Made by a program: the position numbers and the translations under genes. Shown here piece by piece: positions 17,311-20,991 of a stretch of 29,689 nt of DNA. Source of the stretch: an uncultured Oscillospiraceae bacterium (GTDB lineage Bacteria; Bacillota; Clostridia; Oscillospirales; Ruminococcaceae); assembly GCA_934454435.1 (NCBI GenBank), contig CAKSGA010000014.1, positions 1 to 29,689 on the forward strand, in the 5' to 3' direction. The notes beneath the pieces were generated by a model. The model was given only the letters and a program-made list of their open reading frames with translations. It did no database searches and had not been told where the DNA came from. Positions within the stretch are counted from its first letter, which is position 1; every line of letters starts with the position of its first letter.

Positions 17311-17386
17311 GGGGGTGTAGCTCAGTTGGGAGAGCGCTTGCTTCGCATGTAAGAGGTCAGGGGTTCGACTCCCCCCATCTCCACCA
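17311..17386 (+). tRNA. tRNA-Ala (anticodon CGC)
   Basis: A 76-nt cloverleaf. The acceptor stem GGGGGTG pairs with CATCTCC and includes the G3-U70 pair that specifies alanine; the D stem is GCTC/GAGC; the anticodon stem CTTGC/GTAAG holds the loop TTCGCAT, so the anticodon is CGC and reads GCG codons; the T loop is TTCGACT. The CCA end is encoded. The outermost T-stem pair is an A-C mismatch. It is a single tRNA with its own promoter. Confidence 0.95.
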
Positions 17387-17486: not shown

Positions 17487-18419
17487 TCACCGTGGAGCGT
17501 CCAGTGTGATATCGGTTTCAATGAAGTCATCGTAGTCGGCGGCGGGAAGATCACTGGCTGTGTCTGAAGCGATTTCAGGTTCGGAGGTTTCCTGTTTTTC
17601 CTGAGGGAAAACTACCTCGGTTCCTGTAAATTCAGACAGCTTTTCCCCGAACGCCGTTCTTGCCTGGTCTGTGAAATATATATTGGAGTACAGCGGCACT
17701 TTGCTCAGTATAGCTTCGGGAGTTATCCCGGCGGACCTGTATTCCCCGGCGGAATGGTAATAAACCCAGCACGGGCTGTAGATCTTATCACCGCATACTA
17801 TTGAGTATTCGGAAGCAAATATCCGTGTGATCTCTGTAATGTTTCCGGAAAGTATAACGTCAAGCTCCCCGTGCGTTATCCGGAGCTGATCGTCGTCGGA
17901 CTCCAGATAGTATGCCAACGCCGTTTCCGCTTCCTGACGGGTTATTCCGAAGTCGGTTATGAACGAGTACAGATTGTGATAGTCCTTTATGCTGCATGAG
18001 TTTTTCAGGTCCGTCCAGGAAATGGAGCTTATCCACTCCTCCACCGCAGAACTGTCCCTCAGCTGCATTATTGACCCCGGGATATTGTCGAGCACCCTGT
18101 TGCAGGGCTGATAGAACACCCAGTTTTCATCTCCTCCGGAGTTCTGGGACAAAGAAAAGGGTTCCGGCATGTCTGACAGCACCGGCTGCGACTCCAGGGT
18201 GCTTATGGAAGTGTCCGGCGCTGAAGTCAGGCTTTGCGAGCCGTGTAATGACAGCGCACAGGCTGCCGCCGCCACGACTGCCACTGCGGCAGCGGCTGCC
18301 CGTATGATACGCAGCGGACGCCGCCGTACAGCTTCTTCGGGAGCAGCCCGTTCAAGCATTTCGTCCGGAATATCCCCCAGGGCTTCCAGGAGCTTTTCGG
18401 CCTTTGAGTTTTCGGTCAT
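17487..18419 (-). CDS. Probable membrane-bound anti-sigma factor
   Basis: A 310-residue protein encoded directly after an ECF sigma factor, overlapping its stop by four bases (ATGA), with GGAGG in front. Parts: a short acidic cytoplasmic N-terminus (1-35, LLEALGDIPDEMLERA), one membrane segment (about 38-58, Ala/Val-rich), and an external domain of about 250 residues ending in a low-complexity acidic tail. The layout matches regulators of ECF sigma factors that hold the sigma at the membrane, but no zinc-binding anti-sigma (ZAS) motif is seen. The external domain shows no known enzyme motif, so the signal is unknown. Function rests mainly on gene order and topology. Confidence 0.7.
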   Translation of the reverse strand: MTENSKAEKLLEALGDIPDEMLERAAPEEAVRRRPLRIIRAAAAAVAVVAAAACALSLHGSQSLTSAPDTSISTLESQPVLSDMPEPFSLSQNSGGDENWVFYQPCNRVLDNIPGSIMQLRDSSAVEEWISSISWTDLKNSCSIKDYHNLYSFITDFGITRQEAETALAYYLESDDDQLRITHGELDVILSGNITEITRIFASEYSIVCGDKIYSPCWVYYHSAGEYRSAGITPEAILSKVPLYSNIYFTDQARTAFGEKLSEFTGTEVVFPQEKQETSEPEIASDTASDLPAADYDDFIETDITLDAPR

Positions 18420-18976
18420 ATAGCTATTCCCTCCTTTTCAAGAAACTTTCGCAGGGCGTTGCGGGTGCGTGCAAGCATTGACTTCGCCCTGCTCTCGCTC
18501 ATGCCGAGCTGTTCTGCGATGTCCTTTACGGGAACGAGATACCAGTACCTGCGCAGGAATACGGTGCGTTTGATCTCGGGGAGCCCGGTCAGAAACCGGC
18601 TCAGCGCTGCGGAAAGCTCTGCCCGGTCCAGCTCCTGGTCTACGGTGCAGCCGCCGGGAATGCACTCCTCAAGCTCCGACAGCACCAGCGGGACTTCGCC
18701 GCCGCCACGCCGGGCTGTACGCTGCTGTTTCCATTTGTTGATCGAGAGGTTCCGCATTATTTTTGCAATGAATGCCAACAGTCTTTCCGGGCGATCAGGA
18801 GGTATGCAGTTCCAGATCTTCAGGCAGGCGTCGTTCAGGCATTCTTCTGCGTCCTGTGCGGAGTGGAGTATGTTCATGCTGATACTGCGCAGCGGGCTTC
18901 CATATTTGCGTGTGAGCTCGGCTATGGCGTTTTCGTCCCGGGCGAAGAACATCTCAATTATTCTTTCGTCCTCCAT
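18416..18976 (-). CDS. ECF-type RNA polymerase sigma factor
   Basis: A 186-residue sigma-70 family member with only regions 2 and 4, the ECF pattern. Region 2 spans about 10-85 (YGSPLRSISMNILHSAQDAEE, then DACLKIWN and FIAKIMRNLSINKWK); region 4 spans about 125-180 (LPEIKRTVFLRRYWYL, then IAEQLGMSESRAKSMLARTR). The ATG at 18976 has AAGGAGG at a good distance; the frame continues upstream to 19057 but without such a site. It is cotranscribed with the probable anti-sigma gene. The target regulon cannot be read from this window; no typical GGAAC-type ECF promoter was found nearby. Confidence 0.92.
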   Translation of the reverse strand: MEDERIIEMFFARDENAIAELTRKYGSPLRSISMNILHSAQDAEECLNDACLKIWNCIPPDRPERLLAFIAKIMRNLSINKWKQQRTARRGGGEVPLVLSELEECIPGGCTVDQELDRAELSAALSRFLTGLPEIKRTVFLRRYWYLVPVKDIAEQLGMSESRAKSMLARTRNALRKFLEKEGIAI

Positions 18977-19062
18977 TGAAGTCCTCCTTTTTTGGCGGTT
19001 CAGTCCCGCCTTTTCGTTCTTACCCTTTATGACAGCAAAAAAACTCCCGGGTCGCATTTTCG

Positions 19063-19094
19063 AAAAAAAAAATCCGCAGACGGGGTGTCTGCGG
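19063..19094 (-). terminator. Strong intrinsic terminator upstream of the ECF sigma gene
   Basis: On the minus strand an 8-bp perfect stem CCGCAGAC/GTCTGCGG (19074-19081 with 19087-19094, 5-nt loop) is followed by A then ten T residues. It lies 86 bp before the sigma gene start, with no annotated minus-strand gene upstream of it. Confidence 0.85.
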
Positions 19095-19220
19095 GAAACT
19101 CAAATGAATTAGCCGAACGCTTGGGGAAAAGCGCTTTTACTCGGCTGAAATAATTGGGGAAAATATATTAAGAAGTATGTCAGCCAATTTAGCTTACAAT
19201 ACTGTCTTGTCTTGATTTAC
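19063..19220 (-). ncRNA. Candidate small RNA or attenuated leader upstream of the ECF sigma gene
   Basis: An intergenic transcript is predicted from a strong promoter (19227-19255) to a strong intrinsic terminator (19063-19094), about 155 nt. The RNA contains a stem AGCCGA/TCGGCT (19111-19116 with 19141-19146) enclosing a second stem (19118-19122 with 19129-19133). The segment 19143-19148 can instead pair with 19180-19185, and 19152-19157 with 19184-19189, so alternative folds exist. Two copies of UUUUCCCC occur (minus strand of 19123-19130 and 19156-19163), at least one in a loop. It may be a free regulatory RNA or a leader that stops transcription before the sigma gene. Confidence 0.55.
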
Positions 19221-19226
19221 AATGAT

Positions 19227-19255
19227 ATTATAGCATTTTTCAGTTTTTTTTTCAA
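19227..19255 (-). promoter_or_regulatory. Minus-strand promoter of the candidate small RNA
   Basis: TTGAAA (plus 19250-19255) and TATAAT (plus 19227-19232) on the minus strand, spaced 17 bp, with an A-rich spacer. Predicted start near 19220. Confidence 0.75.
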
Positions 19256-19351
19256 CCCGCATATAGCACAAATTTTGTTCATCAATTATGGGTATATTGT
19301 ACAATTGACCTGCTTTTGTATATTATTTTAGCCAAAACATTTCACGAAGTG

Positions 19352-19370
19352 TTGTGCATATCGCAGAATT
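19352..19370 (+). promoter_or_regulatory. Dyad element, copy 1 (upstream of the 137-aa gene)
   Basis: TTGTGCATATCGCAGAATT. The core is an imperfect dyad TTGTGC-N5-GCAGAA. Its last base is 13 bp before the first base of the -35 box at 19383. Copy 2 (20069-20087) differs at one position and has identical spacing to its -35. Confidence 0.6.
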
Positions 19371-19382
19371 GATATCTGGTGC

Positions 19383-19411
19383 TTGCTTTTTTGTTGAGCC
19401 TGGTGTATAAT
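19383..19411 (+). promoter_or_regulatory. Promoter of the 137-aa membrane protein gene
   Basis: TTGCTT (19383-19388) and TATAAT (19406-19411) with a 17-bp spacer; predicted start near 19418, leader about 50 nt. Confidence 0.7.
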
Positions 19412-19468
19412 GGAATTAAAACAAAGGGTGCAGATTTTCTCTGCCGATAACCAGGACAGGAGGTCATT

Positions 19469-19882
19469 ATGGAACGTATAGTTAAAAAACTGTATATTTG
19501 TATTCCCGCACTGATCTTTGCGGTGATGTTCGCAGCGGAATACCTCTACTGCTTCGATGGCTGGCTGACCGACCCCGGATCTTCATATGTGTTCATGATA
19601 TTGTGTGTGGCAGTCCAGACCGCCTGCGTGGAGTACATCTGCTTCTCCCTCGGCGCAAGGCACAGGTGGGTGGTAATGCTGGCGGCTTCCCTAGGAACGG
19701 GCGCCGTGTTCTCCGCAATGCTGTTCTGGAACCTTTACATAACGATGTGCAGCGACAGCGCAATGCTGCATTCGGCAATGATCTTCAATATGCTCCCGCT
19801 GGTGACCGGAGCAGTTCTGCTGGCGTTCCAGCTGCTGTTCACTGGGCTTTCCGGAGGAATGAAGCTCCGCACCGGGCGCTGA
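19469..19882 (+). CDS. Small four-segment membrane protein, unknown function
   Basis: A 137-residue hydrophobic protein with four predicted membrane segments (about 8-28, 41-60, 67-90, 104-127) and short loops. No family motif recognised. A strong AGGAGG lies 6 nt before the ATG. It has its own promoter with the upstream dyad element, and a hairpin terminator 22 bp past its stop, so it is a single-gene unit. The shared dyad element suggests that it is switched together with the secreted-protein operon at 20212-21805; any functional link is inferred from that alone. Confidence 0.75.
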   Translation: MERIVKKLYICIPALIFAVMFAAEYLYCFDGWLTDPGSSYVFMILCVAVQTACVEYICFSLGARHRWVVMLAASLGTGAVFSAMLFWNLYITMCSDSAMLHSAMIFNMLPLVTGAVLLAFQLLFTGLSGGMKLRTGR

Positions 19883-19904
19883 ACCTGTTCTGAACAATAA
19901 CCGT

Positions 19905-19936
19905 CCCCCACACAAGGCACTGCGCCGGTGTGGGGG
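19905..19936 (+). terminator. Terminator after the 137-aa gene
   Basis: CCCCCACAC (19905-19913) and GTGTGGGGG (19928-19936) form a perfect 9-bp stem with a 14-nt loop, followed by ATTTGTGC. A second small hairpin (TCCCC 19951-19955 with GGGGA 19961-19965) follows. The right arm is part of the 29-bp direct repeat. Confidence 0.65.
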
Positions 19937-19947
19937 ATTTGTGCTGT
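19919..19947 (+). repeat. 29-bp direct repeat, copy 1
   Basis: Identical over 29 bp to 21811-21839. It begins ACTGCGCCGG and ends TTGTGCTGT. This copy includes the right arm of the terminator of the 137-aa gene. Confidence 0.85.
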
Positions 19948-20068
19948 AAATCCCCGTTTGGGGGAATATACAGCCTGCTGCGGCTGATCTCAGGCCCTCC
20001 TATCCAAAAAAACGTTTTTCTTTGACATTAAATCTGATCCACTGTGAGCAGAATTATGACATTGGAAA

Positions 20069-20087
20069 TTGTGCATATAGCAGAATT
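20069..20087 (+). promoter_or_regulatory. Dyad element, copy 2 (upstream of the secreted-protein operon)
   Basis: TTGTGCATATAGCAGAATT, 18 of 19 bases identical to copy 1. The last base is 13 bp before the -35 box at 20100, exactly as in copy 1. A further half-site GCAGAATT lies at 20048-20055, and a partial copy GCATATAGCA lies at 19259-19268, next to the minus-strand promoter of the candidate small RNA. Confidence 0.6.
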
Positions 20088-20099
20088 TCAGAAAACATG

Positions 20100-20128
20100 T
20101 TGCAATTTTGACACTTATGGTATATAAT
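20100..20128 (+). promoter_or_regulatory. Promoter of the secreted papain-like protein operon
   Basis: TTGCAA (20100-20105) and TATAAT (20123-20128) with a 17-bp spacer; predicted start near 20135, leader about 75 nt. Confidence 0.7.
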
Positions 20129-20211
20129 ATTGGGCAACAGCATATGATTTCAAACAAGTCGTGATTGCTGCCAGACAAAAAAACAATAATTAATTTAGGA
20201 GGAAAATCAAA

Positions 20212-20991
20212 ATGAAAACAAGGACTGTAAAAAGAATCCTGAGCACATTTATGGCGGTAGCTATTTCTGGCGCTATGATGGGGGCAGTTCCTGCCGTTGC
20301 GCAGAATGCTCCGGATATTTCAGCAGAGATAGCAGTACTGTCGGCAAAATATGATGAAAGTTCAAATTTCGCTAAGCTGGAGAGCTGGTTTGAAGAGCAT
20401 AATGCTGACGAGGAACAGATCAGACTCATTCTGAGTGATGAGGAAATGATGGAGGATATTCTTCGTGATCGCTTCTGGGAAGATAATGATAACCAGGCAG
20501 TAACATTAGCTGCACGGTCAACCTCTTATCCTATTGCCGGTTATGGAAATGGCACTTACTTTTCAAAAAACAGAAAGGCTTGCACTCATCACCGTAATAG
20601 TGTGGCTTCTTGTAGTCTTGACGGTTCATGCGGGTGCCAGTCTTTTGATAGCTCGATCCAGTGCAATGGATTTGCTAAACTTGTTTATTGGACATCGACA
20701 GGCAATCATATAGGAAATAACAGCCTTGGTCTTGGCATGTCCGGAACATGGAATACAACCAACATAAAAAATTATTTTACAAATAAAGTTGACGTAGGGT
20801 CTTATGTAAGACTGACCACTAAGAGCGGATTAGGTCATTCTATCATTGTGACCAATATAACAAGTTCCGGTATTACTTTGTATGACTGCAACTATGACAT
20901 GCAGTGCGGCGTACGCATAAAGACATATACCTGGAACAGCATTTATAATTCATTCAGCGCAATAAATGGCGTATACAAGTACTCAAACTGA
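20212..20991 (+). CDS. Secreted papain-like (NlpC/P60/CHAP superfamily) protein
   Basis: A 259-residue exported protein. A signal peptide covers about 1-30 with a likely cut after AVA; then an acidic helical region (35-95) and a cysteine-rich catalytic-looking domain (105-259). Candidate active-site residues are C151 in QCNGFAK, H209 in GLGHSIIV and N227 in YDCNY, the Cys-His-polar order of the NlpC/P60/CHAP group, which usually cleaves peptidoglycan peptides or amides. An unusual insert before the active Cys holds C124, C134, C140 and C142 and two His. AGGAGG precedes the ATG. Base composition is clearly more A/T-rich than the neighbouring housekeeping genes. It is followed after 16 bp by a lipoprotein gene. 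It could also be a peptidase of another papain-like family; the substrate is unknown. Confidence 0.7.
   Translation: MKTRTVKRILSTFMAVAISGAMMGAVPAVAQNAPDISAEIAVLSAKYDESSNFAKLESWFEEHNADEEQIRLILSDEEMMEDILRDRFWEDNDNQAVTLAARSTSYPIAGYGNGTYFSKNRKACTHHRNSVASCSLDGSCGCQSFDSSIQCNGFAKLVYWTSTGNHIGNNSLGLGMSGTWNTTNIKNYFTNKVDVGSYVRLTTKSGLGHSIIVTNITSSGITLYDCNYDMQCGVRIKTYTWNSIYNSFSAINGVYKYSN

Follow-up and report, generated by a model that had tools for sequence, protein, structure and literature searches.

A small RNA gene kept across one genus of uncultured Ruminococcaceae and predicted to pair with the mRNA of a GHL10 lipoprotein

Introduction

What might be transcribed from the gap ahead of an ECF sigma factor gene in an uncultured Oscillospiraceae bacterium, and on what would the transcript act? 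The window analyzed here, the whole stretch of 29,689 nucleotides, carries in this gap a minus-strand promoter followed by a terminator. The original prediction, made from the letters of the window, offered two readings of this unit, namely a trans-acting small RNA of the RoxS/RsaE type, which uses C-rich single-stranded motifs to cover Shine-Dalgarno sequences, or a leader with a terminator that governs readthrough into the sigma and anti-sigma genes. RoxS/RsaE is a free-standing transcript of Bacillus subtilis and Staphylococcus. To our knowledge, base-pairing small RNAs of the bacterial group studied here are little known, and none was reported for the group among the literature matches listed.

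Results

Promoter, terminator and fold of the unit

The anticipated minus-strand TTGAAA-17-TATAAT promoter is present, with 11 of 12 consensus matches and a TG ahead of the -10 box (Table 1), and ranks best among the seven promoter-like sites in 18000-20500, where shuffled sequences give 2.8 ± 1.7 such sites. The stem with ten T that had been noted downstream proves to be an eight-pair terminator. Terminator-like sites per se are not above chance in number (4 observed, 3.1 ± 1.9 expected); it is the comparison with relatives, described below, that marks the RNA unit as more than chance. The predicted fold of the RNA reaches -41.7 kcal/mol vs -23.7 ± 3.1 for shuffled sequences (z = -5.85), none of the 200 shuffles being as stable. 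The C-rich sequence TTTTCCCCAA occurs exactly twice in the whole window, both times inside the RNA (19121-19130 and 19154-19163, minus strand), against an expectation of 0.06 and two copies in 0 of 100 shuffles. The claim of two C-rich motifs, one of them in a hairpin loop, thus holds, and both regions are kept in the genus. Upstream of the promoter, the AAAATTTGT element may serve as an UP element or as an activator site.

Table 1. Positions of the small RNA gene, its parts and the adjoining sigma gene within the window.
Feature	Position	Strand	Remarks
ECF sigma factor gene	18416..18977	-	Pfam Sigma70_r2, r4_2; neighbor outside the conserved unit
Small RNA gene	19063..19220	-	About 158 nt from predicted start (near 19220) to end of T run; start inferred from the -10 box
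Intrinsic terminator	19063..19094	-	Stem 19094-19074 with 8 pairs (6 G-C), loop ACCCC, ten U (ten T at 19072-19063)
Hairpin 2	19111..19146	-	Second UUUUCCCCAA (19121-19130) in and beside the loop
Near-invariant stretch UACUUCUUAAUAUAUUUUCCCCAAUUAUUU	19148..19177	-	3' part (19148-19168) single-stranded in the predicted fold; predicted seed
Hairpin 1	19170..19208	-	Lower stem AAGA.AGUAU / AUACUUCUU nearly invariant; upper stem variable with compensation
Promoter	19227..19255	-	-35 box TTGAAA (19250-19255), 17 nt, TG, -10 box TATAAT (19227-19232)
AAAATTTGT element	19268..19276	-	Exactly 12 nt separate its TTTGT from the downstream -35 box

The unit had also been said to contain no credible open frame, and no reading frame is conserved among its relatives, in which the longest frames vary in start, length and place (median 21 codons). 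Short frames of at most 51 codons do exist in some relatives and might be taken for a small protein gene; their inconsistency, length differences in the alignment that are frequently indivisible by three, and a best-kept part that is invariant at almost every base make such a coding role scarcely credible.

A covariance-model scan against Rfam 15 at gathering score returned no RNA family in the gap, and the sole match in the window was a tRNA gene (17311-17383, plus strand, 57.5 bits) close to where the gene following sigma ends. Across 18950-19480 there was no RsaE match up to E 10, only sub-threshold matches to unrelated families. Because the scan gave no match, the RNA is not counted as a member of RoxS/RsaE; it belongs to a putative family that the Rfam 15 scan does not recognize. 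No report of this RNA appeared among the literature matches listed, and the supplementary candidate lists that accompany PMC8040213 may contain it.

Conservation and covariation

An alignment of 43 sequences (the window and 42 relatives, some truncated) reveals one order of elements. Hairpin 1 comes first, followed by the near-invariant UACUUCUU(A)AUAUAUUUUCCCCAAUUAUUU, by hairpin 2, which has UUUCCCCAA at the loop, and by the terminator hairpin. Within the core only two positions vary, an A that some relatives lack and a C that is altered in a single sequence (L106). The terminator loop, ACCCC in the window, reads ACCCCCUU in most relatives, and the C-rich single-stranded places kept in the genus comprise the two copies of UUUUCCCCAA together with this loop of four to five C.

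Compensatory changes, which the original prediction had proposed to seek by comparative alignment, are found in hairpin 1, in the inner stem of hairpin 2 and in the terminator. The upper arms of hairpin 1 pair with -6.7 kcal/mol in their native combinations vs -3.9 kcal/mol after swapping arms between species, and 6 of its 15 pairs have changed on both sides. For the inner stem of hairpin 2, native arms form 6.8 pairs and swapped arms 5.3 (5.9 in the best of 1000 swaps); the outer stem gave no significant effect in the arm-swapping test. The terminator stem is paired in 99.7% of cells across 41 sequences, and both partners have changed in 4 of its 9 pairs. With the structure of L091 projected onto a 41-sequence alignment (A2), 88.4% of cells pair, vs 36-45% with slid partners; in the same alignment the covariation score is 0.172 vs 0.128 ± 0.006 for shuffles, and double-sided pair changes number 13 vs 9.3 ± 1.3. 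The number of further pair types in this alignment is not above that of shuffles (35 vs 34.1).

The promoter is kept along with the RNA. TTG[CA]AA-17-TATAAT lies within 260 nt upstream in 39 of the 41 sequences having upstream DNA (at about 155 nt in L122), and the remaining two carry TTGCAC or TTGCAT in the same place (L109, L106), so that the count becomes 41 of 41 once a single deviation is tolerated in the last position of that box. TTTGT stands 12 nt ahead of the -35 box in 33 of these sequences, and TTTG followed by T, G or A in 39; it is absent in L107 and L110. The combined pattern TTTGT-12-TTGnAA-17-TATAAT has 103 exact matches in the 43 genomes (for example G009:C5:18818, G035:C8:41805 and G046:C6:13031) vs one for the reversed pattern. 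Thirty-two of the 103 are the promoter of the RNA itself. A recurrent subset of the matches contains TATTGCAATATA and resembles a separate operator.

A different motif, GCATAT[A/C]GCA[C/G]AATT, occurs on the plus strand at 19259-19274, 19356-19371 and 20073-20088, that is, upstream of the RNA promoter (on the other strand) and of the frames starting at 19469 and 20212. With up to three mismatches it has 4 matches where 1.1 are expected, and 3 of 100 shuffles have as many, the pattern itself having been derived from these sites.

Taxonomic range

The genus was reached from the genomes of two RNA-bearing loci, L001 and L002, and a blastn search with the RNA (E <= 0.001) detected it in 42 of its 43 genomes. 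Under stricter filters, a covariance model built from 41 sequences recovered it in 7 of 396 genomes sampled from the family, all of them members of the genus. A 30-nt core pattern, which is blind to relatives without one A such as G039, a genus member within the order sample, matched 2 of 394 genomes sampled from the order, again both from the genus. Among 200 relatives, the single match outside the genus was weak and partial (33 nt, in G095) and was not recovered on re-reading the loci. By the searches used, the RNA marks, and is kept across, one genus of uncultured Ruminococcaceae/Oscillospiraceae-type bacteria, a placement indicated by protein names (Ruminococcaceae, Oscillospiraceae, Eubacterium sp. 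CAG:786). Plasmid and phage collections contained no match to the RNA at E 1e-5 and IMG/VR contigs no exact copy of the 21-nt core, and a mobile or phage origin was dropped from consideration on these grounds.

Four genomes (G002, G014, G020 and G021) have second matches running up to contig ends, apparently split or partial copies. In G014 the second, truncated copy (C111:1-109) differs slightly from the full copy on C48, and may be a true second copy or reflect a mixed assembly. In G034, a 26-nt stretch 92% like the RNA core lies away from the RNA gene (C7:85674-85701, L127); it may be a remnant, a second RNA or a target site.

Neighboring genes

We placed the start of the sigma gene at 18977 from its 186-aa homologues and an AAGGAGG; the longest frame (18416-19057, minus strand) extends back almost to the terminator. 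The 310-aa protein encoded after sigma (17487-18419, minus strand) has no Pfam match and a sub-threshold NCBIfam match to CU044_5270, and an anti-sigma role is suggested for it by position only.

In the window, as in G001 and G002, the sigma gene comes next after the RNA on the same strand, and in the window alternative stems can be drawn, which together speak for the reading of the RNA as a leader with a readthrough-controlling terminator. However, the sigma gene adjoins the RNA in only 2 of 42 relatives, G001 and G002, and the RNA was present at just two (L001 and L002) of the 80 loci reached by way of the sigma protein. A gene other than sigma comes next in G021 and G026, whose RNAs are 96 and 92% identical, and downstream genes vary among relatives, often lying on the opposite strand (the downstream stretch read varies between loci and is incomplete in G029). 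The proposed competing stem, 19143-19148 with 19180-19185, is feasible in the window (-12.2 kcal/mol). Only 10 of 43 sequences have it in strong form (<= -6 kcal/mol), however, and it shows no covariation, native arms being no better than arm-swapped controls (-3.8 vs -4.0 kcal/mol); the terminator stem is kept in the 41 aligned sequences. Because of the rare linkage and the lack of covariation in the alternative stem, we reject the leader or attenuator of sigma/anti-sigma as a very unlikely explanation.

Upstream, a permease gene of the Mem_trans family (assigned by Pfam on one member) ends 91-397 nt from the RNA, mostly near 100 nt, on the same strand in at least 30 of 42 relatives. This arrangement would agree with an RNA that derives from the permease mRNA, either as its 3' UTR or by processing. 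A complete promoter nevertheless separates the two, and RNA and promoter persist beside another upstream gene in the window, G001, G002 and G026, so that this origin is even less probable than a leader. As far as the genomes reveal, then, the RNA has its own promoter and terminator, kept though the neighbors differ, as befits a trans-acting base-pairing small RNA.

A complementary site in the GHL10 lipoprotein mRNA

We next turn to the predicted partner of the core. A search of the 43 genomes for the core complement AAATAATTGGGGAAAATATAT, allowing at most three mismatches, yields 24 sites besides the RNA itself vs 6 for the reversed pattern, and 14 of the 24 overlap or closely precede a start codon. 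With the left flank permuted the genomic pattern finds 13 sites, 3 of them common to the real pattern. Three complementary sites belong to the same gene in G030, G040 and G041, which encodes a lipoprotein with a GHL10 domain (PF02638). This gene is present in 40 of 43 genus genomes; two of the three in which it is undetected (G044, G046) carry the RNA. The third, G027, is the sole genus genome without an RNA match, and this double absence may reflect genome incompleteness.

To define the site we used 28 GHL10 loci from the genus, that is, 30 fetched less two (L208, L209) dropped for a mispicked start. TTGGGGAA precedes the start in 17 of these 28 ribosome-binding sites, and GGGGAA in 22, or 23 with one start moved. 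In 29 orthologues from sister genera, that is, other genera of the family with genomes among those lacking an RNA match, TTGGGGAA is found in none and GGGGAA in one; starts were picked by a heuristic that favors the motif equally in both groups. As background, a single gene among 1006 sampled from four genus genomes has TTGGGGAA, and in a control, the permease gene, the most shared 8-mer reaches 5 of 31, some of those starts being mispicked.

Duplexes with the core average -15.9 kcal/mol over 29 genus sites (the 28 with G001 added), vs -6.4 over the 29 sister sites and -7.0 over the 1006 genes. An energy of -12 kcal/mol is reached by 28 of 29 genus sites vs 2 of 29 sister sites, and by 4.7% of the 1006 genes. 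None of 200 flank-permuted cores attains -15.9, the best mean being -14.8 kcal/mol, and variants with a single bulge, such as TTGAGGGAAAA (G001, G026) and TTGGGTGAAA, keep the pairing. The conserved seed is thus matched by a conserved site, and the comparisons strongly predict pairing with the GHL10 lipoprotein mRNA, the best candidate target. The joint presence of RNA and target site could trace back to a small number of evolutionary events, the genus being a single clade.

Three exposed C-rich stretches could attract a protein, and the RNA might then act mainly as a decoy or scaffold, the TTGGGGAA of the lipoprotein gene being kept for another reason. Two further observations fit such a role: the invariance of the RNA exceeds what pairing with one target needs, and complementary genes show no general excess. 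The contrast between genus and sister genera in TTGGGGAA, the single-bulge variants that preserve pairing and the flank permutations nonetheless favor base pairing. We regard protein binding as the unlikely, though not negligible, alternative to base pairing with the lipoprotein mRNA.

Other candidate targets

Among the 1006 sampled genes, complementary sites are no commoner than with flank-permuted cores (20 vs 17 ± 8), and a large regulon is therefore not supported. The pattern TTGGGGAAWW-ATG occurs 135 times in the genomes vs 60 for its reversal. We left out 15 sites on RNA or GHL10 contigs, a further 10 were unread, and 110 were read. At 63 of these TTGGGGAA-ATG sites no frame of at least 60 aa starts; 47 do start one, and 29 of the 47 frames remain open over more than 30 codons upstream, so that these sites probably lie inside genes.

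For an OmpR-type response regulator, complementarity is seen in five species, those whose protein is most similar (about 85% or more). By energy, one other of the 25 sites read is complementary, 5 of the 30 loci having given no start. Sites seen singly belong to genes for an MBOAT protein in G009 (with a near-identical counterpart in G032), MltG/YceG-like and GDSL proteins in G026, an Amidase_6 lipoprotein in G023 and a CotH-domain lipoprotein in G035. We infer an envelope theme for these; other single sites fall outside it, for example a FapA-like gene in G015, a GAF-domain gene in G001 and a gene in G011 judged RecA-like by eye.

Discussion

The evidence assembled above argues that the unit is probably a gene in its own right, encoding a trans-acting small RNA of about 158 nt whose core is predicted to pair with the GHL10 lipoprotein mRNA and to block ribosome binding. 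Comparison lends good support to the option of a C-rich trans-acting RNA in the original prediction, promoter, terminator, core and complementary target site all being kept; membership in RoxS/RsaE falls away by Rfam.

In the mechanism that we propose, the single-stranded core would pair with the Shine-Dalgarno sequence of the mRNA for the GHL10 (glycosyl-hydrolase-like) lipoprotein, the predicted contact being RNA UUCCCCAA with mRNA UUGGGGAA, and in some species it would cover the start codon as well. Ribosome binding and initiation on this mRNA would then be blocked and the lipoprotein turned off. The loop copy of UUUUCCCCAA offers a possible second contact. In some lineages the RNA would meet further mRNAs, namely that of the OmpR-type response regulator in the five related species and, singly, those of other envelope genes.

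As to history, we lean toward a course in which a genus-specific RNA arose together with the unusual Shine-Dalgarno sequence TTGGGGAA of the GHL10 mRNA and the two have been locked since, while the leader of that mRNA otherwise diverged and single-bulge variants appeared in several lineages. Further targets, such as the OmpR-type response regulator of five related species, would have joined in subclades, giving rise to an envelope-control RNA. If this is true, the target history of such an RNA can be read straight from the genomes of uncultured bacteria. Here sequence alone yields an RNA together with its structure, its promoter, its range among taxa and a specific predicted target site, and the genomes that carry it, set against sister genomes that do not, form a natural experiment on the tying of a small RNA to its target.

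Of the known systems, RoxS is the closest in design. RoxS has several C-rich regions, with the C4 motif CCCCUUUGUU present twice, pairs with Shine-Dalgarno sequences, and relies on one CCCCUUUGUU copy as key for blocking ppnKB (PMC4409812). The present RNA resembles RoxS/RsaE in repeating C-rich motifs in single-stranded places, in its predicted pairing with a Shine-Dalgarno sequence and in being a putative free-standing transcript. It differs in its motif, UUUUCCCCAA with an AU-rich near-invariant flank, in its host group, and in its predicted main target, one envelope lipoprotein, whereas RoxS/RsaE acts on redox and central metabolism. The 6C RNA of Actinobacteria forms hairpins with C-rich loops. 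Such loops are shared by the RNA described here, which belongs to another phylum and matches no Rfam family at gathering score. MicA and RybB are small RNAs that control envelope proteins. With these and with LhrC (PMC4132741), our RNA would share the lowering of an envelope protein through a covered ribosome-binding site, predicted in the present case. No family relation to them is known, and the present RNA is set apart as a single gene per genome within an uncultured Ruminococcaceae/Oscillospiraceae genus.
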